From: an uncultured Psychroserpens sp.
GTDB taxonomy: Bacteria; Bacteroidota; Bacteroidia; Flavobacteriales; Flavobacteriaceae
NCBI RefSeq assembly: GCF_947492715.1
Contig: NZ_CANLNS010000001.1
Coordinates: forward strand, 496,001 to 560,000
Direction: 5' to 3'
DNA length: 64,000 nt
Shown: in pieces, positions 23,160-63,432 of the stretch
Layout of the letters: each line of letters opens with the position of its first letter
How positions within the stretch are numbered: position 1 is the first letter of the stretch
Notes under the pieces: model-generated
The model's input: only the letters and a program-made list of their open reading frames with translations
Told to the model about the DNA's origin: nothing
Database searches by the model: none
Position numbers and translations under genes: made by a program

Positions 23160-23525
23160 ATGCAATTATCCAAAACAGAAGAACAACTTATGCAATATCT
23201 CTGGAAACTAGAGACCGCTTTTATGAAAGATTTGTTAGAAGCCTATCCTGATCCAAAACCTGCTACCACAACTGTTGCCACTCTTTTAAAACGAATGATT
23301 GGTAAAGGTTTTGTCGCTTATAAGCTTTATGGAAAATCGCGGGAATATTACCCTTTAGTTAAAAAGAAAGATTATTTCTCAAAACACGTAAACACTTTAA
23401 TTAAAACATTTTTTAATGACAGTGCATCCCAGTTCGCTTCGTTTTTCACAAAGGAGACCGATTTAACAAAAGAAGAGCTCGAAGATTTAAAAGCATTAAT
23501 AGATAATGAAATAAAAAACAAATAG
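23160..23525 (+). CDS. BlaI/MecI/CopY-family repressor
   Basis: A 121-residue winged-helix repressor: LSKTEEQLMQYLWKLETAFM, then KPATTTVATLLKRMIGKGFV (recognition helix and wing) and SREYYPLVKKKDY, followed by a helical dimerisation region (FNDSASQFASFFT) where BlaI proteins are normally cleaved. It represses until a partner M56 protease cleaves it; the partner is encoded 2 nt downstream. It probably binds the two operators on its own promoter. The ATG at 23160 lies about 25 nt after the -7 box. Confidence 0.94.
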   Translation: MQLSKTEEQLMQYLWKLETAFMKDLLEAYPDPKPATTTVATLLKRMIGKGFVAYKLYGKSREYYPLVKKKDYFSKHVNTLIKTFFNDSASQFASFFTKETDLTKEELEDLKALIDNEIKNK

Positions 23526-23527
23526 TC

Positions 23528-26500
23528 ATGCTCATTTATCTTTTAAAATTTAGCGTCTGTCTAGCCATTTTTATGGTATTTTATAAGTTGTTTCTAGAAC
23601 AATTAAGCATTCATGTTTTTAAACGTATCTACCTAATAGGTATCATAATTTGTGCATTAATTATTCCATCGATAACAATTACAGAATATATAGAACCAGT
23701 GATTTCAAATGTAGAAATATTTGAATCTACAGTTTCTTTTGATTCTTTGGAAATGCTACCTGTAGAACCAACTATCAACTATACCCCATATATTCTTTGG
23801 AGTATTTATATTCTTGGAGTTGTTGTTTTCTTTCTTAAATTTTGTCTTAACCTGCGTAGCATTTTTTCAAGAATTAAAAACAATCCTAAATACAAATCTG
23901 AAAACTTCATCAATGTTCTTGTGACTAATTTAATGGTTCCTCATACGTTCTTCAGTTATATCTTCTTGAACAAATACAAATTTGAACATGAAGAAATACC
24001 AAATGAAGTTATACTCCATGAGCAAACACATGCAAAACAAAAACATAGCATAGACATCCTCTTTCTTGAATGTTTGCAAATTGTGTTTTGGTTTAATCCA
24101 CTTATTTATTTTCTAAAGCGTGATGTAAAAATGAATCACGAATTTTTAGCAGATCATGCTGTTTTAAGCAATGGAGTTCAACCATCAACATACCAAAATA
24201 TCATCCTAGCTTTCTCATCAAAAGCATCAGATCAACACTTGGCAAATGCCATCAATTACTCATCAATTAAAAAACGATTTACAGTTATGAAAACAAAAAC
24301 ATCAAAAACATCCATTTGGTTCAAGAGTCTATTACTTATACCATTATTGGCCCTTTCCTTGTATAGTTTCACTAACAAAGAACAAGTGGTGAGAGCTATT
24401 TCTGACGATAGTGGTATCATTTCTGAAGGTGTTACAGATGCTCAAATGAAAGAATATAATGATTTCATTATTCAGTTTAACACAACACATATCATAGACT
24501 ATTCTAAATACGAAAGAATTGTATCTATTTACAACTTAATGTCTGAAAAGCAACGTAATTCGGTCGAACCATATCCTAAGATTCCTAATGTTGATTTATC
24601 AAAAACTAAAGCAAAAACACCAACCAAAACTCAGTTCGAATCGTGGAAAAACAGTAAGGAATTCGCCATTTGGATTGATGGTGTTCACGTTCCAAATGCT
24701 AGACTAAATTCATACAATGTACATGACATAGCGCACTATACTGGTAGCTTCGTTCATAAAAATGCAAGAAGCAAAAAATTCCCGCAACCTCATCAATTTA
24801 GTTTATATACCAAAAAAGGATTCAAAAACACCTATCAGGAATCTAAAATTAAAGAATACAGAGTACTAACAAAAAAGTATAAGGTGGCCATTGAGACGTT
24901 TTTAAAAGGTGATCGTAAGGACATCTCCGAATTAGTACTTTTAAACGAACGTTGCTATAGGCTTTACAAATCATTTACTGACGAAGAGTTAAAGAAACAT
25001 AAGATTTTACCGCCACCGCCACCGCCTGCGCCAATTAAATTATCGGTTGGTGCTACGCCAGAGCAAGTAGCTGAATATAATAAAATGGCGAAGTTCCTAA
25101 ATGATAAGAGCATAGAAAACAGGCTTATAAAACTTAAGGATTATAAAAGGTTAGAACGCATTTATAAACTCATGAGTAAAACACAAAGAGCAAATGCAGA
25201 ACCATTTCCAAAGTTACCACCACCTCCGCCTCGGCCTTCAAAGCCCAAAAACATGGCTAGCTCCTCATTACCATCTTCATTTACTCATAAATTAAATGAT
25301 TCTTTATCGTACAATTTTACAAGTGTAAATATGACTCAGCAAAACACACCAAAAGGTTTGCCTGAGCAAAGTGAGGCTATAAAAAGGGAGTTAGATTATA
25401 GAAAGATGATCATACATGTCGCTGAAAAAACGAACAAAAAATCAATTTATAAAATCGACGGAAAGCCAGTATCTCTTAATAAAATTAATAAATACCTAAG
25501 CAATTTCCCAAGAGCTTCCGTTAAGGCTAGAGAAAATTCAAATGGAAGTTTAACTTTGTCCTTCTCTAATTCAGATAGTAAAAAAATGAGTCCGATCGAA
25601 TTACAATCTGTTTATTCCATCGTATTTAGCAAATATGATTCTAGCAACGAGAACTTGTCAAGACTAACTTCGTATCCAGTAAAATCTAAAACAAATAATG
25701 GGCCTAATGCAAATGAATATGATGAGACTCTAAATGAAACTGTAAAAACAGGGTTCAAAAAAATCAATGGAATCCCTCATTATTTTGTATCCATAGATGG
25801 GCAAACTAAATATTACAACAGACAAGGGTTTCAAGTTTCAAAAGAAGGTAAAATTCTAAGTTCATCTCAAGTCAATGCTTCTGATGTTATTCCAAATCAA
25901 TATGTGACCAAAGTATATACTAACGACATTGTTGTTGCAGAATTTAAAGATGACAAACCTAATTTAAAAGGAGAGTTAAATATTCCTCCTCCTCCACCTA
26001 AATCACCTCTTGATAATATAATTGACATGGCTAAAAAAGATGCTACCTTTTATCTTGATGATAAAATCATAACTTCTGATAAAGCCATAGAAATTGTTAA
26101 ACACGGAAACTACAAACATATCCAAACAATAAATGAACGTGATGAAAAGCCTATTCTAAGAATAGAGCAACAACCAATAGTTAATAATAAAGTAGGCCTT
26201 CCAAAACCAACAGCTTCGAATATTGTTAATCATATCAAGGTAATGAATAGGCATGGCGCTCGTTTTTATCTCGGTAATAAAGAATTAACCTATAAGGATG
26301 CTTTAAGTTATATAAGAAAACATAAAGATGCTATTGTTGACACATCTATGGAGGCAAATGTTGTTAAGATTTCTCCAAAAGATCAAACATTAGAATCGCC
26401 GTTAGTATTTGTAATTGCCATGTCTAAAAGAAACGCCAAGTTCTTTTTTGAAGGCGAAGAAATAACATCAAACAAAGCCATTTCTCTTGTTAAAAGAAAA

Positions 26501-26884
26501 GGTGGTCTTTTAGAAATTAAAAGTAAAAATGTCGATAGCAAACAACCATCTATATATCTTTCTAAAAAAGGAGCCTTGGTTGGGACGCTCGCTACAAATG
26601 AATTAGTTGTGTTTGTTAATGGCAAAACTCCAGTAAATGGGCAAATCTCATTATCAAAAGACGAATTCAATAACTTAAAACTAACAATGGAAAAACTTGA
26701 AATAAAAAGTTTCAAATTTAAAGTTCCTGGAAAACGAACAGAATCAATTTCTGGAAATACGTTAAATAAAACGTCTAAATCTTATATAAAACCACTACAA
26801 AAAGGTAGTGCTGTTCAATTTTTTGATATTAAAAGCAAAAATGGTTTAAAGCTCAAACCAATAGTTGTTACTATTATCGACTGA
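23528..26884 (+). CDS. BlaR1-like M56 membrane peptidase with very long repeat-bearing sensor region
   Basis: 1118 residues, much longer than a normal BlaR1/MecR1 (about 600). The N-terminal four-helix M56 part (1-280) has the zinc motif HEQTH (His164, Glu165, His168) and NHEFLADHAVL; a transmembrane segment near 265-282 (WFKSLLLIPLLALSLYSFTN) leads to a large periplasmic region. That region has two EYN...IYxLMSxxQRxxxEPxPK units (about 302-357 and 510-570), a DGVHVPNARLNSY module (near 378), PPPPP linkers, and three related units near 833, 904 and 964 with the pattern xFY(L)-x-x-K/E-x-(I/L)-T. No penicillin-binding domain is recognisable. It likely senses an envelope signal and inactivates the BlaI encoded 2 nt upstream. 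A terminator follows. Confidence 0.88.
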   Translation: MLIYLLKFSVCLAIFMVFYKLFLEQLSIHVFKRIYLIGIIICALIIPSITITEYIEPVISNVEIFESTVSFDSLEMLPVEPTINYTPYILWSIYILGVVVFFLKFCLNLRSIFSRIKNNPKYKSENFINVLVTNLMVPHTFFSYIFLNKYKFEHEEIPNEVILHEQTHAKQKHSIDILFLECLQIVFWFNPLIYFLKRDVKMNHEFLADHAVLSNGVQPSTYQNIILAFSSKASDQHLANAINYSSIKKRFTVMKTKTSKTSIWFKSLLLIPLLALSLYSFTNKEQVVRAISDDSGIISEGVTDAQMKEYNDFIIQFNTTHIIDYSKYERIVSIYNLMSEKQRNSVEPYPKIPNVDLSKTKAKTPTKTQFESWKNSKEFAIWIDGVHVPNARLNSYNVHDIAHYTGSFVHKNARSKKFPQPHQFSLYTKKGFKNTYQESKIKEYRVLTKKYKVAIETFLKGDRKDISELVLLNERCYRLYKSFTDEELKKHKILPPPPPPAPIKLSVGATPEQVAEYNKMAKFLNDKSIENRLIKLKDYKRLERIYKLMSKTQRANAEPFPKLPPPPPRPSKPKNMASSSLPSSFTHKLNDSLSYNFTSVNMTQQNTPKGLPEQSEAIKRELDYRKMIIHVAEKTNKKSIYKIDGKPVSLNKINKYLSNFPRASVKARENSNGSLTLSFSNSDSKKMSPIELQSVYSIVFSKYDSSNENLSRLTSYPVKSKTNNGPNANEYDETLNETVKTGFKKINGIPHYFVSIDGQTKYYNRQGFQVSKEGKILSSSQVNASDVIPNQYVTKVYTNDIVVAEFKDDKPNLKGELNIPPPPPKSPLDNIIDMAKKDATFYLDDKIITSDKAIEIVKHGNYKHIQTINERDEKPILRIEQQPIVNNKVGLPKPTASNIVNHIKVMNRHGARFYLGNKELTYKDALSYIRKHKDAIVDTSMEANVVKISPKDQTLESPLVFVIAMSKRNAKFFFEGEEITSNKAISLVKRKGGLLEIKSKNVDSKQPSIYLSKKGALVGTLATNELVVFVNGKTPVNGQISLSKDEFNNLKLTMEKLEIKSFKFKVPGKRTESISGNTLNKTSKSYIKPLQKGSAVQFFDIKSKNGLKLKPIVVTIID

Positions 26885-57231: not shown

Positions 57232-57708
57232 CTATTCAAGTTTAATGATTACAGGTAAAACAAATTGTGTTTTTACTTGTTGACTTCGTTTTATGGCTGG
57301 ATAAATTTTAGGCAGTGTACTCAAGCTGTGTCTTAGTAGACTATCTAATTGCGGAATCTCATTCTTTGTAGTGGGAGCACTTACAATATCGTTAATCATA
57401 AGTTTACCCTCGTTATCAATAGTGATTTGAAGTTGAACTGTATCTGTAATTTCTTCTGAAACAATAATATGTGCTTTAGCCAAATTCTGGTTAAGAATAC
57501 GTCGTAATGTATTTTCAAAACAGGCTTTTTTATTCGCTTTTCCAGACAACGCTTGGCAAGAATCAAACGATGGATACTCGTCAACATCTTTCCAGTTGAA
57601 TGTTTGCCATTCTTCCTCAAGAATATCTTCAGTATATACCTTCTTCTTGTCGAAATAATCACAAGATATTAAGGTAATAATAGCCAAAAAATAAAATAAA
57701 CGTTTCAT
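57232..57708 (-). CDS. Lipoprotein with degenerate TonB-C-like domain
   Basis: 158 residues from ATG 57708 (signal ends LAIITLISC). The rest resembles the C-terminal domains of the M56 protein at 58896 and of TonB at 62641: YPSFDSCQA...KACFENTLRRIL (paired Cys), then QLQITIDNEGKLMINDI and LLRHSLSTLPKIYPA ... LPVIIKLE. The order and spacing match, though the sequence is diverged. It is the last gene of the BlaI/M56 operon, 48 nt after the TPR gene. A role in contacting TonB-dependent receptors or the M56 sensor is inference. Confidence 0.75.
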   Translation of the reverse strand: MKRLFYFLAIITLISCDYFDKKKVYTEDILEEEWQTFNWKDVDEYPSFDSCQALSGKANKKACFENTLRRILNQNLAKAHIIVSEEITDTVQLQITIDNEGKLMINDIVSAPTTKNEIPQLDSLLRHSLSTLPKIYPAIKRSQQVKTQFVLPVIIKLE

Positions 57709-57756
57709 GGTATAAACTGAAACGGAAAAGTACAATTTTTTTGGATATAATATAAT

Positions 57757-58896
57757 TTACTCCTTTTCCTTTAAAAATTTCTCCTCTTTAAGCTGTGAGA
57801 TACGTTGTGAAGCATACTTTGCGTAAAAGCTATCACTATACTTCTCTTTAAAGTCTTTATACAATTTGATTTTAGCATCGATGTCTTCATAATAAGCATC
57901 TTTGGTAGTGATTATAAAGAATTCTGTCCTAACATTCTGAGGGTTTTCTTTAAGTGATTTTTGAAATGCCTCAAGTGCTTCTTTACGTTTGTTTTGCCAA
58001 TTGTAAACCGTACCCAATTTTTGGTATTCTTGGTCGAGCGGAACATCCATTAAAGACAAGGCCTGTTTGATATACTTTTCGGCCTTCTCAAAATCTCGTA
58101 AACGCTCATAATAGGTGCCAATAACAAATATAGCAGTAGAATTATACGGATTGTATTTTAGTGCCTTGTTACGTTGTTCAATGGCCAATTCGTAATCTGA
58201 ATTTTGAGCATGACATAAGCTCAATTTTTCATGTATAAATTCTGAAGACTCTCCTAAATCTATTAGTTTCTGAAAGTTATCGCGCGCCTTGGTATAGTAT
58301 TCTTGCAAATAAAAACTTTGAGCCTTTAAACTAATGAGTTCTACATTGTTGGAGTAAGTCTCTAGACCTTTATCAATATATTTTTCGGCAAGTGTATGTC
58401 GGCGTTTTTTAAGATAATGTCTCGCTATTTTATAAATCGACTTTTGGTGTGTTTGATCCAAATCATAGGCAGATCTAAACCTATTAATTGCTGTAGAATC
58501 TTTCATTTTCTCTAAAGCGAGGCCCATTTCATAATGATAATTAGGATTGCGATAATCGATATTCATTAATCGATTAAACATTTCAATTGACAATTCAAAT
58601 TTTTTCGTTTTTGATAACAACTTTGCATACTCATAAAGAGTTAGCGCTTTTTTAGGATAAGCATCAACACTTAATTTATAATGTTCTAGTGCTAGGTCAT
58701 AGTTACCAATAGCGACATAGGATTTGGCTATTTTGTCATAAACTTCATTAGGGTTGTTATAGGTTTTATAGGCAGCAATAGCTTTGGTATAATTACCATT
58801 TACATATAAGCTATCGGCCAGATTTAAAACCGAAGACTGAGCCTCGGTTTTATTTACATTAATGACTATAAAAAATAGAATAAATAGTATACGCAT
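57757..58896 (-). CDS. TPR-repeat protein, exported
   Basis: A 379-residue protein; signal peptide RILFILFFIVINVNKTEAQ. About nine tetratricopeptide repeats fill the rest (NYTKAIAAYKTYNN, DYELAIEQRNKALKYNPYN, DFEKAEKYIKQALSLMD), suggesting a periplasmic protein-binding scaffold. The start codon shares a base with the stop of the M56 gene (TAATG), so the two are co-translated. It may hold components of the M56/TonB-C system. Confidence 0.87.
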   Translation of the reverse strand: MRILFILFFIVINVNKTEAQSSVLNLADSLYVNGNYTKAIAAYKTYNNPNEVYDKIAKSYVAIGNYDLALEHYKLSVDAYPKKALTLYEYAKLLSKTKKFELSIEMFNRLMNIDYRNPNYHYEMGLALEKMKDSTAINRFRSAYDLDQTHQKSIYKIARHYLKKRRHTLAEKYIDKGLETYSNNVELISLKAQSFYLQEYYTKARDNFQKLIDLGESSEFIHEKLSLCHAQNSDYELAIEQRNKALKYNPYNSTAIFVIGTYYERLRDFEKAEKYIKQALSLMDVPLDQEYQKLGTVYNWQNKRKEALEAFQKSLKENPQNVRTEFFIITTKDAYYEDIDAKIKLYKDFKEKYSDSFYAKYASQRISQLKEEKFLKEKE

Positions 58897-61193
58897 TAAT
58901 TTTTCTTGTCTTTATTAGTTTTTGGAGCTATTTGAAAAATAATTGGTAAACTATAAGGTACGATCACTGGTTTCCCTTTATGTTTACCTGGAGTAAATCG
59001 CGGCAAACTCTTGAGTACTCTTATCGTCTCTTTTTCTAAATCTGGATGGCTCGCTCGAGCCACTACATTGGTTACATAACCCAATTCATCTATTCTAAAC
59101 ATCGCTATAATCTGTTGTCTACCTTTAAGTCCTAAATTTGTTGCCAAATCCATATTGAAATTTCTACTTACATAAGAAGATACTTCTCTACTAACACATT
59201 TTTTTCTCGCTTCATTGTCTGAAAGGCCAACACAAGAATCATACATTGGCACCTCATCAACAACTCCAAAAGGGACCTCTTTTAATTCTTGCTCATTAAC
59301 AGCTTCTTCTAGCGCTTCTTTTAACGGTACCTCTTGATTGTCTGTAGTTGTTTCTTCTTTTGGATCTGCGTTTACTTGAAAAATAATTGGTAAACTATAT
59401 GGCACGATAACAGCTTTCCCTTTATGTTTTCCTGCTATAAATTGAGGCAATTCATTTATCACTCGTATAGCTTCTTCTTCTAATTTAGGATGTGGCGCTC
59501 TTGCCCTAACACCTGTTACAAAACCTTCTTTATTTATTTTAAAGATGACATTAATGCGCTGCCTTCCAACTAAACCGAGCTCTTTGGCTAAATCTGTATT
59601 GAACTTTTTATTAACATGTTTGGCTACATTTTCACTCATGCATTTTTTTCGTTCTTCTTGACTCTCAAAAGAATCACAGAATGAAAACGTTGGTGCTTGG
59701 TCAATAATGGCAAAAGGTACTTCGATATTTGAATCTTTTTCTTCTGCTGAAAGATCTTCCTTAACTTCAATCGACATGTCTGCTACTGCACCTTCATTGA
59801 CCTGCATTTTTGTTTTACCATCTACCGAAACGATGAGTAAGCCTTTAAAAAAATCATCCTGTTGGATCAATTTGAGTTTTTCTTCATATTTCTGCTGTTC
59901 TTCATCTGTCATACTACCAACCTTATCAACAACAAGTCTTAGAATACCATCTTTAATAATACCTTCCCATTCTAATTTGGCTTCGTTCGTTTTTTTATAC
60001 TCTAAATATTGCTTATAAGTTATTGGGGATGCTGTGTTTTGAAATGGAGTTCTAGTTATTTTTCCGTTACTTTGACTATTACCGAGGTCTTTAAGATAGG
60101 TTACAAAAGCCTTATTTTTCATAAACTGATCTCTAGCTGCAATATAATTTTCTCTATTAAGAATATACCTACCGAAATCCTCACCTTTTACTCCTGTAAC
60201 TTCATACAATTTCACTATTTCGTCATAATATTTATTAAATAAATCTTCATCTGATAATTCTTGATTTAATTCAGTAGTATTGGCATCTTGCACTAAATCT
60301 TGTTGTTCTTGGGCATAAGATGATGTATAAATTAACATTGTAAACACCAATGGAATTAACAGTGCGTACTTAATAATATTGATACGTTTAGATTTTGATT
60401 TACTTAACATCAGGATTCGTTTTTTTATTAATGAGTGCTTAAAAAATGGGTTGACAAATGAAAACTGCTGGGTCTCAAAAACCTGAGATAACAAGCTATC
60501 ATAATAATCTGATTTATTATGCTGTTTAACAGCATTGGCATCTGCAATATATTCATGCAGCGTGGCAATTCTATTTTGATACATATAAACCAGCGGATTG
60601 AACCAAAATATGATGCGAAATATTTCAAAAAACATCAAATCTAGCGTATGTCTTTGTTTTACATGTACAATTTCATGTTCTAGAATGCTAGTTCTTTCTT
60701 GAGGATTTAATTTTTCACCTAGAAATATGTAATGAAAAAAAGAAAATGCTCTAGTGCTATTAAGTAAATTGACTATGAGTAAATTTCCGTTCCATCGTTT
60801 TGGATACTTATGAGCTAACCATAATAACTTAGACAACTTAATGAGTAATATCAAGGTAGCTAAACCCATTCCTGCAACTAAAATGATCGTCCATATTGAC
60901 ATGGACTCTTGTTCTAAATTAATGCCTGCTTGCATGGCTATTTGAGGATCTAGAGTACTTACTTTTTTCGTAACATCTCCTATTATAATTTCAGGTAAAT
61001 GAATTACAAAATCATCAGAAACGACGGTTTTTATTTGGTCTATTTTTATAAATGGGATCACTACAGAGAGTAAAGCTGTACCTAATAAATATGCCCTATT
61101 CAAATTAAAAAATGTTTCTTTCCTAAGAAAAATATCATAAATGATTAAAAACAACAATTGGAAGGATACGACCTGTAAAATATAATGTAACAT
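58896..61193 (-). CDS. BlaR1-like M56 peptidase with two C-terminal TonB-C-like domains
   Basis: A 765-residue membrane sensor/protease. Membrane helices at 1-60 and near 85-120; zinc motif HEIVH (His173, Glu174, His177) and LHEYIADANAVKQ; last membrane helix near 270-290. The periplasmic part has a linker (about 300-485), then two TonB-C-like domains, about 492-610 and 640-755, each VPF..(I/V)D..P.F..C....C....N.DLA.(E/N)LGL.G.Q.I...F.I. and ending with VIVPYSLPIIFQ. Its BlaI partner is 1 nt upstream. Normal BlaR1 has a penicillin-binding sensor instead, so the signal here probably concerns TonB or its receptors. Confidence 0.9.
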   Translation of the reverse strand: MLHYILQVVSFQLLFLIIYDIFLRKETFFNLNRAYLLGTALLSVVIPFIKIDQIKTVVSDDFVIHLPEIIIGDVTKKVSTLDPQIAMQAGINLEQESMSIWTIILVAGMGLATLILLIKLSKLLWLAHKYPKRWNGNLLIVNLLNSTRAFSFFHYIFLGEKLNPQERTSILEHEIVHVKQRHTLDLMFFEIFRIIFWFNPLVYMYQNRIATLHEYIADANAVKQHNKSDYYDSLLSQVFETQQFSFVNPFFKHSLIKKRILMLSKSKSKRINIIKYALLIPLVFTMLIYTSSYAQEQQDLVQDANTTELNQELSDEDLFNKYYDEIVKLYEVTGVKGEDFGRYILNRENYIAARDQFMKNKAFVTYLKDLGNSQSNGKITRTPFQNTASPITYKQYLEYKKTNEAKLEWEGIIKDGILRLVVDKVGSMTDEEQQKYEEKLKLIQQDDFFKGLLIVSVDGKTKMQVNEGAVADMSIEVKEDLSAEEKDSNIEVPFAIIDQAPTFSFCDSFESQEERKKCMSENVAKHVNKKFNTDLAKELGLVGRQRINVIFKINKEGFVTGVRARAPHPKLEEEAIRVINELPQFIAGKHKGKAVIVPYSLPIIFQVNADPKEETTTDNQEVPLKEALEEAVNEQELKEVPFGVVDEVPMYDSCVGLSDNEARKKCVSREVSSYVSRNFNMDLATNLGLKGRQQIIAMFRIDELGYVTNVVARASHPDLEKETIRVLKSLPRFTPGKHKGKPVIVPYSLPIIFQIAPKTNKDKKN

Positions 61194-61194
61194 C

Positions 61195-61557
61195 TTATTG
61201 CTTTGTTTTATTAATATCCTTTAATATGGCTTCCATATCTTTTAAATCAACGTCATTTTTCTTAACAAAAAAAGACACCATACTTTTAAAAGAACCCTGA
61301 AAATAATTATCTACAAGGGTATTAATAGATTGATTACTATAATCTTGTTTTTTAACTATAGGAAAGTACAAGTGTCCTTTACCTTGTTTCTCATAATCTA
61401 CAAACCCTTTGTTTTCTAAAATTCTAATAATAGTAGAAACTGTATTATATGCTGGTTTGGGTGTGGGAAGCTCATTAATAACGTCTTTGACATTGGCTTT
61501 TTCTAGTTGCCATAAGATCTGCATAATCTCTTCTTCGGCCTTTGTGAGTTGTTTCAT
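61195..61557 (-). CDS. BlaI/MecI/CopY-family repressor (second copy)
   Basis: A 120-residue winged-helix repressor: LTKAEEEIMQILWQLEKANV, KPAYNTVSTIIRILENKGFV and GHLYFPIVKKQDYS. It lies 1 nt upstream of the M56 gene and 16 nt downstream of the DUF4350-like gene, so it has no room for its own promoter and is part of the same operon. It probably binds the shared operator upstream of that operon and of tonB. Confidence 0.93.
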   Translation of the reverse strand: MKQLTKAEEEIMQILWQLEKANVKDVINELPTPKPAYNTVSTIIRILENKGFVDYEKQGKGHLYFPIVKKQDYSNQSINTLVDNYFQGSFKSMVSFFVKKNDVDLKDMEAILKDINKTKQ

Positions 61558-61573
61558 TTTATCCCTTTTATTT

Positions 61574-62506
61574 TTATTGTTTTATAGTATTGTTGGAACC
61601 TAACCAAAGCATCAGGTTTCGTATAAAATCTATATTATTTGGTGCATTTTTAGAATTAAATCCTACTTTGAATGTTCCAGAGGCGTTTGTAATTGTTTGA
61701 GCGGTAAACTGTGCTGCTTCACCAAATACAGCCAATTTACCCTTCCCAAAATCCATTATGGCTCCTTGGTAATTATCTTCTAGGTCTTTAGTTTTTGTAT
61801 CGTCATTAAATTGCCAAGCAATTTCAGGTTGTAAGCAAGTGTCGCCCTTTTTAAATTTTAAAATACCAATAGCTTTTGAAGGTATTTGAAAAGAAGAACC
61901 TGTAAATGTTGTTATACTATCCAACGATTTTCCATAAGTTCCATCGGTTAGTTTAGATGCAATTAATCTTTGGTTGTTTTTAGAAAAAACATCAGGCTGA
62001 TTTCGAGGTTTCGACAATCGGGCAAATCCATCACAAAAATCAAATCCAAAAGCATTCGCCAACGTATTAGATGCTCCAGAAAAAGGCATATGATCTGCTA
62101 TAAGTAATAAACGCCCACCATTAGATACCCATTGTTTGATCTGTTCTATCTCTTTTGTTTTAAAGGCATCATAAATAGGTTGTTGCCAATTACCAATGTT
62201 TCTAGGTTCTATGGCATTAGAAATTACTAGAATATCTTGTGTTTTAAGGTCGTCATAATTTATTAATGCTTTTACTTGATAGCCATCGCGTTTCAATAAA
62301 TCACTAAATGGTTTAAAACGCCCATTTTTCGTATGAAAATTATTGTGCATTTCATCGATATGAACGGTGGGGCCTTCATTTATTTTATAATAAGGACGTT
62401 CTAGTTTAGGTACCATAGTAGTATCTGCACTCTGTTGAGACACGCATACAAACGAGGTGCACAAAGTACAAACTAGAATTAGTCTTTTTAAGTTAAGTGA
62501 AAGCAT
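61574..62506 (-). CDS. DUF4350-like exported protein
   Basis: About 310 residues from ATG 62506 (an ATG at 62515 is also possible), with a signal peptide ending SFVCVSQQ. The glutamine-amidotransferase-like fold of DUF4350 is suggested by DILVISNAIEPRN, WVSNGGRLLLIADHMPFSGA and KGKLAVFGEAAQFTAQ; no catalytic Cys triad is evident. It is the first gene of the five-gene operon with blaI. The promoter/operator lies at 62527-62568. Function unknown; the company suggests envelope stress or nutrient-transport signalling. Confidence 0.75.
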   Translation of the reverse strand: MLSLNLKRLILVCTLCTSFVCVSQQSADTTMVPKLERPYYKINEGPTVHIDEMHNNFHTKNGRFKPFSDLLKRDGYQVKALINYDDLKTQDILVISNAIEPRNIGNWQQPIYDAFKTKEIEQIKQWVSNGGRLLLIADHMPFSGASNTLANAFGFDFCDGFARLSKPRNQPDVFSKNNQRLIASKLTDGTYGKSLDSITTFTGSSFQIPSKAIGILKFKKGDTCLQPEIAWQFNDDTKTKDLEDNYQGAIMDFGKGKLAVFGEAAQFTAQTITNASGTFKVGFNSKNAPNNIDFIRNLMLWLGSNNTIKQ

Positions 62507-62526
62507 AAACCACATGTTTAACGAAT

Positions 62527-62568
62527 CAAATATAACTAAAAGATTAGTTTAAACTATGGTTTTAGTTT
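62527..62568. promoter_or_regulatory. Operator/promoter of the blaI-M56 operon (second copy of the palindrome)
   Basis: On the minus strand TATATTTG (62534-62527) matches the -7 box. From 62533 to 62568 the sequence matches the 36-bp palindrome at 63397-63432 at 31 of 36 positions, with five changes at positions 11, 25-27 and 36 of the element. Half-sites have the ACTAAA/TTTAGT form. The element lies 27 nt upstream of the ATG at 62506, like its sister (28 nt) before tonB. Confidence 0.7.
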
Positions 62569-62640
62569 AAAAAATTATCAAATGAGCTTAGAGGCATTAA
62601 ATTTCGGGTAAAACGATGTGCCTCATACATGTATTGAATA

Positions 62641-63369
62641 TCAGTTATCGACTTGAAATGTTAGTGGAAAAGCATAAGGTACTCGTACAGCCCTACCACG
62701 CTGCTTACCTGGTTCCATTTTTGGTAACAATCTCAGAACGCGCTTCGCCTCTTTATCAAGCCTGGTATCTGGTCCTCTGGCCTGAATGTTCGTAATATTT
62801 CCTTTTTCATCGACGATAAACATCATGGAAATTCTATACTTTCCAGCTTGTAGTCCAAGTTCATTTGCCAAATCCAAGTTAAATTTTTTCTTAATGAACC
62901 TATTGATTTTATCAGACATGCATTGTCTTTTCTTTTCATTGGTTTTTTTCTTTTCACAACCAGGAAAAACTGGTACGTTTTCAATAATGTGAAAAGGTAC
63001 CTCAATATCCTCCTCTACCTCCTCTACCTCAACTTCTTCCACCTCAACGATTTCTTCTTCCTGATCTGTTTCAGTAGATTCTATAACGGTCTCTTCTATT
63101 TCCTTTTCATCTTCAACGATTTCAATCTCCTCAGGCACTACAGGTGGCGGTGGCGGCGGAGGTGGTGGAATAACATCTTGATTTGTGATTGGAATCTCTT
63201 CATCATCCAAAGCCTCTAAATCCAATCGTCCAATATCTATGACCTCCTTATCGTAAGTTTTAAAATTAAGTGTCATATATGTCAAACTCATTACTAACAA
63301 TAGACCTACGGAAAAATAAAGAGAACTGTTTCTACCTATTTCTGCTTTCGAATTTTTTTTTGGTTCCAT
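62641..63369 (-). CDS. TonB-like energy transducer
   Basis: A 242-residue protein: a cytoplasmic N-terminus and one transmembrane helix (about 15-33, SLYFSVGLLLVMSLTYM), a linker with nine prolines (VIPPPPPPPPPVV) and a very acidic Glu/Val repeat (about 82-118), and a C-terminal TonB-C domain (about 123-242) with VPVFPGCEKKKTNEKKRQC and KYRISMMFIVDEKGNITN. It couples inner-membrane proton-motive energy to TonB-dependent receptors such as SusC. The linker is acidic rather than the usual Lys/Pro mix. It is a single-gene unit controlled by the palindrome at 63397-63432. Confidence 0.93.
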   Translation of the reverse strand: MEPKKNSKAEIGRNSSLYFSVGLLLVMSLTYMTLNFKTYDKEVIDIGRLDLEALDDEEIPITNQDVIPPPPPPPPPVVPEEIEIVEDEKEIEETVIESTETDQEEEIVEVEEVEVEEVEEDIEVPFHIIENVPVFPGCEKKKTNEKKRQCMSDKINRFIKKKFNLDLANELGLQAGKYRISMMFIVDEKGNITNIQARGPDTRLDKEAKRVLRLLPKMEPGKQRGRAVRVPYAFPLTFQVDN

Positions 63370-63390: not shown

Positions 63391-63432
63391 CTAATATAAC
63401 TAAAAGTTTAGTTTAAACTAAACTTTTAGTTA
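63391..63432. promoter_or_regulatory. 36-bp perfect palindrome, operator of tonB
   Basis: 63397-63432 is a perfect inverted repeat (18-bp arms meeting at TTTAAA) starting TAACTAAAAG and ending CTTTTAGTTA. It contains two sites of the form ACTAAA-N2-TTTAGT (63399-63412 and 63417-63430). CTAATATA (63391-63398), read on the minus strand as TATATTAG, is one base from the -7 box. The element is 28 nt upstream of the tonB ATG and between tonB and the DUF456 gene, so it may affect both. Confidence 0.75.

Follow-up and report, generated by a model that had tools for sequence, protein, structure and literature searches.

The minus strand of the window, by which we mean the whole 64,000-nucleotide stretch of DNA that was analysed, carries tonB, a weakly DUF4350-like gene, blaI, an M56 protease gene, a TPR gene and a lipoprotein gene (Table 1). 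Pfam scans of the operon and tonB gave 114 bits for BlaI and 57.6 bits for M56, and placed TonB_C on two stretches of the M56 protein and on one of the tonB product (31.6 bits). The first gene of the operon had been listed as a DUF4350-like member in the earlier note, which was also made from the sequence; the score of its product lies below the cut-off, and the label was dropped.

Table 1. Features of the locus, with positions numbered along the window.
Feature	Position	Strand	Basis or remark
Double operator before tonB, perfect palindrome	63398..63431	-	Sequence and genome scan
-7-like box TATATTAG before tonB	63391-63398	-	Starts on last base of tonB operator
tonB paralogue, 242 aa	62641..63369	-	N-terminus and linker like housekeeping TonB, C-terminal domain diverged
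Double operator before operon	62534..62567	-	Sequence and genome scan
-7 box TATATTTG before operon	62527-62534	-	Box position
Weakly DUF4350-like protein, signal peptide-like start, optional member	61574..62515	-	19.1 bits, below cut-off
BlaI-family repressor, 120 aa	61195..61557	-	Penicillinase_R 114 bits; MecI alignment
M56 membrane zinc protease with TonB-C sensor domains, 765 aa	58896..61193	-	Pfam, alignment, model
L2-loop motif LPEIIIG, residues 66-72	60978..60998	-	TonB-box likeness judged by eye against the genome's receptors
HExxH zinc motif, residues 173-177	60663..60677	-	H173, E174 and H177 invariant in alignment
TonB-C domain 1, about residues 487-607 of M56 protein	59373..59735	-	Pfam, identity, model
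TonB-C domain 2, about residues 635-757 of M56 protein	58923..59291	-	Pfam, identity, model
TPR protein, probably exported, usual but optional member	57757..58896	-	Pfam
Lipoprotein with diverged TonB/TolA-like domain, near-constant member	57232..57708	-	Alignment, model, fold search

The locus has the anatomy of a BlaR1/BlaI-type switch: blaI lies beside an M56 gene, the M56 domain carries HExxH, and a palindromic operator lies at the promoter. Residues 3-117 of the repressor align to MecI (E 6.2e-14) in an alignment that covers the cleavage-site region of MecI; the asparagine of what we take to be the exact cleavage site is not kept in this BlaI. With BlaR1/BlaI and MecR1/MecI of Staphylococcus the system shares its repressor family, the M56 membrane plan, the HExxH motif, the placement of the sensor after the last membrane helix and the operator over the promoter, whereas its operator is unlike the staphylococcal one in sequence. 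It differs from BlaR1 and MecR1 in having a TonB-C-like rather than a beta-lactamase-like sensor, and in its outputs, which are a lipoprotein, a TPR protein and sometimes a TonB. TonB_C stands in the place of the beta-lactam sensor, and the score against the NCBIfam model blaR1_generic is 35.1 bits against a cut-off of 400; lacking that sensor, the M56 protein is therefore not a BlaR1. No beta-lactamase or PBP family was found among the operon proteins and the neighbours scanned.

The operator is a 34-bp double palindrome, with AACTA-N6-TAGTT occurring twice in an 18-bp register, and one copy stands before tonB and one before the operon. These are the only exact double sites in the whole genome, nowhere else has fewer than 3 mismatches, and the two further places at 3 mismatches are no more than a reversed control gives. 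Scanning for a single palindrome at 3 mismatches was uninformative (1190 matches per strand versus 1699 in the reversed control). Within the genus, the operator occurred in 21 of 23 genomes when up to 2 mismatches were permitted, with all listed operators exact, and the reversed control at 2 mismatches had matches in 5 of the 23. Across Flavobacteriaceae, 163 of 299 genomes had it at no more than 1 mismatch, mostly once per genome (reversed control, a match in 3 genomes). A sample of the phylum returned it in 12 of 296 genomes, all 12 of them among the 30 members of this same family and none among the 266 sampled genomes from outside Flavobacteriaceae.

In 89 of 99 operators, the final base is also the first base of a TAnnTTTG or TAnnTTAG box, in 64 cases TAnnTTTG; the shuffle control for this box covers the bases after the operator rather than the place of the box itself (3 of 101 observed, 3.85 expected). 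TAnnTTTG is the sigma-A -7 box in flavobacteria, according to an excerpt of PMC9723704. With this overlap, a repressor on the operator would abut the promoter. All 21 of the 23 genus genomes that encode a BlaI at least 77% identical also have the operator, while G006 and G012 (the latter of 88% completeness) have neither the operator nor this blaI nor an orthologous M56 gene. From this co-occurrence of operator, blaI and M56 orthologue across the genus we infer that BlaI is the repressor acting at the double operator.

Exact operators were also found apart from any blaI-M56 operon, at unrelated genes in the loci of five relatives. They lie before a gene for a 773-aa protein with an S41 peptidase domain (L217:7091-7124), next to a TPR gene (L227), in the gap between an M1-peptidase-like gene and one without a Pfam family (L228), and before genes without a Pfam family (L231 and L233). 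In the follow-up set of 13 loci that includes the last four, the other 9 are at blaI-M56 operons. The five exceptions indicate that in some genera the regulon can grow, and that it is not always TonB-related.

We compared 99 loci, 20 from the genus and 79 further, to assess the conservation of the operon. Eight genomes were present twice, leaving 91 loci after deduplication; the counts out of 99, for the promoter box, linkers and HExxH, for domain number and for the L2 motif, still include these eight genomes twice. Among the 91 loci, the operator was found in 88, blaI in 89, the lipoprotein gene in 88, the TPR gene in 74, the DUF4350-like gene in 7 and an adjacent tonB in 2. What the earlier note observed is thus confirmed and extends well past the window, with the operator, blaI and the lipoprotein gene near-constant beside the M56 gene, the TPR gene usual but optional, and the DUF4350-like gene optional. 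The operator is missing from three loci: L200, and L167 and L199, where the gene is close to the end of a contig. Truncation of the contig accounts for the missing lipoprotein gene in L180 and L184. In one further locus (L079, G013:C51:162821-163185), blaI is present as two overlapping pieces in different frames, which represents either a real break or an assembly error. Counting the window, a tonB neighbour occurs in three genomes of one genus, apparently through a single recruitment, and the adjacent tonB was dropped as a general part of the system.

The earlier reading of the M56 protein's periplasmic part as TonB-C-like is supported: the fold obtained by structure prediction and search agrees with the two Pfam stretches. 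The model as a whole has a mean pLDDT of 69.4 and a pTM of 0.32, with block values of about 80-93 pLDDT across both TonB-C domains. In a structure search it matched S. aureus BlaR1 and TonB C-terminal domains, with BlaR1 as the top Foldseek row (E 4.4e-4) though at low TM-scores; a sequence search of solved structures with the M56 profile gave no match. HExxH is present in 98 of 99 M56 proteins. One, two, three and four TonB-C domains are carried by 27, 57, 12 and 2 of the 99, respectively, and one protein, cut by a contig end, has none. The linker from the last membrane helix to the first TonB-C domain ranges from 22 to 245 residues in the 96 proteins measured (L167, L180 and L181 were skipped). 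In 11 of these 96 it is shorter than 60 residues, which is probably too short for the outer membrane and argues against the simplest form of receptor reading.

Two conserved cysteines are invariant in the aligned TonB-C domains of the M56 proteins and in the aligned lipoproteins. The paired-Cys segment noticed at the outset is therefore common to these proteins, but the same pair occurs in housekeeping TonB (described below) and in the further TonB-C proteins compared from this genome, so that it looks structural and was dropped as a special mark of the system. The invariance, together with a thioredoxin-like gene between operator and blaI in one relative (L214), could point to a periplasmic redox switch in which the cysteine pair of each TonB-C domain forms or loses a disulfide and thereby sets the protease; with the pair shared by housekeeping TonB and other TonB-C proteins, we consider such a switch highly improbable.

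The partner lipoprotein was modelled with a mean pLDDT of 86.4, and its closest folds are the TonB and TolA C-terminal domains; the predicted fold is thus of the TonB/TolA C-terminal type. At the level of sequence, the protein matched no Pfam family at E 1, is 17-25% identical to the TonB-C domains of the genome, and in a search of solved structures with its profile returned a sole row at E 0.11. Its proposed likeness to TonB-C is accordingly borne out by the model fold but not by the sequence.

The genome has a second tonB on contig C9, which we call housekeeping because all 23 genus genomes proved to have an equivalent. There (L218:6601-10510), it is followed by a second tonB-like gene and then by a gene for a 703-aa protein with a TonB_C-like stretch. 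The product of the tonB beside the operon has an N-terminal hydrophobic stretch and a proline run, both read from the sequence, and a TonB_C domain. It is 83-85% identical to housekeeping TonB in the N-terminus and linker and 64-68% in the C-terminal domain, and the same contrast is seen in all three species that have an adjacent tonB. Relative to the housekeeping TonB of the window genome, fifteen orthologues have 81-97% identity in the N-terminus and linker and 88-97% in the C-terminal domain; the housekeeping set covers 16 of 21 genomes, the other 5 being without a sequence with the start sought. Codon counts agree: for adjacent against housekeeping TonB they gave a dN of 0.09-0.10 for the N-terminus and linker and of 0.23-0.25 for the C-terminal domain, and silent change was close to saturation or had reached it. 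Compared between species, the C-terminal domains of adjacent TonBs have a dN of only about 0.1, which argues that the gene is under selection and not decaying. Judged by these comparisons, the adjacent TonB is no plain extra copy, and its receptor-contact domain is altered.

The sensor lies closer to the unaltered form. Domain 1 of the M56 protein is 61% identical to the C-terminal domain of housekeeping TonB and 44% identical to that of the adjacent one. We then considered 22 diagnostic positions, each fixed in all 16 housekeeping TonBs but different in the 3 adjacent TonBs. Over these positions, domain 1 agrees with housekeeping TonB in 1298 of 2156 cells and with adjacent TonB in 165; for later TonB-C domains, the figures are 1087 and 150 of 1914 cells, respectively. 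Four of the 22 (positions 141, 143, 146 and 202) depart from this, domain 1 there having for the most part neither residue or tending towards adjacent TonB. The counts show that the sensor kept what the spare TonB changed, though ancestry alone could give this pattern, and the housekeeping-like residues of domain 1 may reflect shared ancestry and nothing more.

Feedback on a tonB under the same operator was the central proposal of the earlier note. Since tonB and the operon each have an operator, and the operator tracks blaI across the genus, tonB is probably in the circuit of this species. As an apparently single recruitment found at so few loci, however, tonB is no general rule; feedback on it cannot be the original role of the system and can hold only for this clade. 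The same evidence bears on whether the sensor could be a gauge of receptor load, counting free TonB boxes of receptors so that the output matches TonB capacity to receptor number. Such a gauge would fit a TonB-C sensor, a tonB with its own operator, and a genome in which receptors are numerous, as indicated by 32 Plug-domain matches, one of them inside an M56 protein. It is made doubtful by the rarity of the adjacent tonB, by the altered contact domain of its product and by the linkers of fewer than 60 residues.

In BlaR1, the L2 loop binds the sensor domain, as stated in an excerpt of PMC6925264. The L2 motif [LIMV]PE[VILM]xxG was found in 87 of the 99 M56 proteins from the loci and window and in 106 of 120 database proteins, and in none of 20 genus M56 paralogues with other sensors; these paralogues appear to represent few independent families, and for one (L298) only 84 residues were read, so that its loop is partly unread. 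Ahead of the plug, the genome's TonB-dependent receptors carry boxes, LDEVVVTGY and LNEVVVIGY among them. Of 30 Plug loci, one of the 30 being the M56-Plug protein itself, 6 fit a strict box pattern, and the likeness of the others was judged by eye. The L2 region of the M56 model has a pLDDT of about 44-52, and the two TonB rows of the structure comparison span model residues 61 or 64 to 610 or 609; on this model, L2 may pack on domain 1. That the L2 loop (LPEVIIG) acts as an internal pseudo-ligand silencing the sensor is a fair hypothesis and no more.

Receptor-type TonB boxes, for example LDEVAVVGY, were also found between or after the TonB-C domains in 8 of 90 deduplicated M56 proteins (L144, L149, L161, L188, L191, L192, L196 and L202); the M56 protein of the window is not one of these. 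In the redundant set of 219 M56 proteins (the 99 from the loci and window plus the 120 from databases), 24 have boxes, with 33 motifs versus 0.08 expected from shuffles. Exact boxes of this kind, and the 61% identity that domain 1 still has to the housekeeping TonB domain, count against a general envelope-stress sensor, in which the TonB-C domains would serve only for dimerisation or for binding to peptidoglycan or to the partner lipoprotein, unconnected with TonB function, and the recruitment of tonB would be incidental. A sensor of that type would suit a system whose constant partner is the lipoprotein and not tonB, whose linker length and domain number vary, and whose operators occur at other genes in some relatives, and we regard it as possible but open to considerable doubt.

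In our preferred reading, this BlaR1/BlaI-type switch has had its penicillin sensor replaced by copies of the TonB C-terminal domain and senses a binder of that domain; we give this reading a probability of about 0.5. The switch itself is well supported by anatomy and conservation, and as far as anatomy tells it would work like BlaR1/MecR1. BlaI would sit on the double operator and block transcription until the usual binder of the housekeeping TonB C-terminal domain engaged the sensor domains. Candidate triggers are the TonB boxes of outer-membrane receptors or an agent occupying TonB, and it is plausible that the sensor would read receptors through their TonB boxes. An engaged sensor would activate the protease, and cleavage of BlaI would release the lipoprotein, the TPR protein and the sensor from repression and, in this clade, also a spare TonB whose C-terminal domain is altered. 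Before that, the sensor may be kept silent by the conserved LPEVIIG loop, acting as an internal stand-in ligand.

A narrower version of this switch, which we think unlikely, would be a mec-like guard. The sensor domains would be decoys of the contact domain of housekeeping TonB, silenced by L2; TonB partners or an occupier of TonB would cause BlaI to be destroyed and, here, a substitute TonB to be made. If true, this would be one case of M56 proteases wearing copies of envelope machines (TonB, plug, amidase and perhaps GldM). The pairing of a sensor that mimics the standard component with an output that is a changed spare is reminiscent of MecR1 and mecA. The output of mec is likewise a paralogue of the target, PBP2a (PMC10525618).

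Proteins with this domain order are catalogued under names such as 'BlaR1 peptidase M56/Gram-negative bacterial TonB protein C-terminal'. A database search found 1143 M56 plus TonB_C proteins, and nearly all of the 120 listed carry both Pfam labels, P0112 being without the M56 label. The catalogue gives architecture only; the operator, the regulon, the partner lipoprotein and the TonB comparison come from this work, and searches of an open-access library found no literature on this switch. What is new here, by sequence comparison, is that domain 1 is nearer to housekeeping TonB and that the adjacent TonB is altered mainly in that domain. A widespread, self-contained switch with a TonB domain as sensor would make the way in which bacteria balance dozens of TonB-dependent receptors against TonB testable through one operator, one repressor and one protease, and the logic of BlaR1, with a sensor modelled on its target, would extend beyond antibiotics. 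Cell-surface signalling also couples TonB-receptor machinery to transcription through proteolysis (excerpt of PMC7593790), but the operon described here encodes neither a sigma nor an anti-sigma factor and has a repressor and an M56 protease instead.

In the position that the TonB-C domains occupy in the operon's protease, three further M56 proteins of the genome have, respectively, a receptor plug (41.9 bits), an amidase domain (144.3 bits) and a marginal GldM C-terminal match. By these matches, each alternative sensor looks like part of an envelope machine, as the BlaR1 sensor resembles beta-lactamase. The GldM-like match (25.1 bits, cut-off 24.6) ends a 1118-aa M56 protein in a second blaI-M56 pair, which lies at 23160-26884 of the window. 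A third pair, on contig C6 (L219:5334-7993), has a TonB-receptor Plug domain and a SusC-like signature in its sensor part. Upstream of it are AACTA-N6-TAGTT palindromes in a 20-bp rather than an 18-bp register, and cross-talk between its repressor and that of the operon is possible. The M56 protein of the fourth pair, on contig C5 (L220:5076-6868), ends in Amidase_3 and is perhaps a cell-wall sensor. On contig C1 (L221:2355-5074), a sigma-70-like gene is followed by one for a TonB_C-containing protein of 721 aa; the two may form a sigma/anti-sigma pair that uses a sensor domain of this type.
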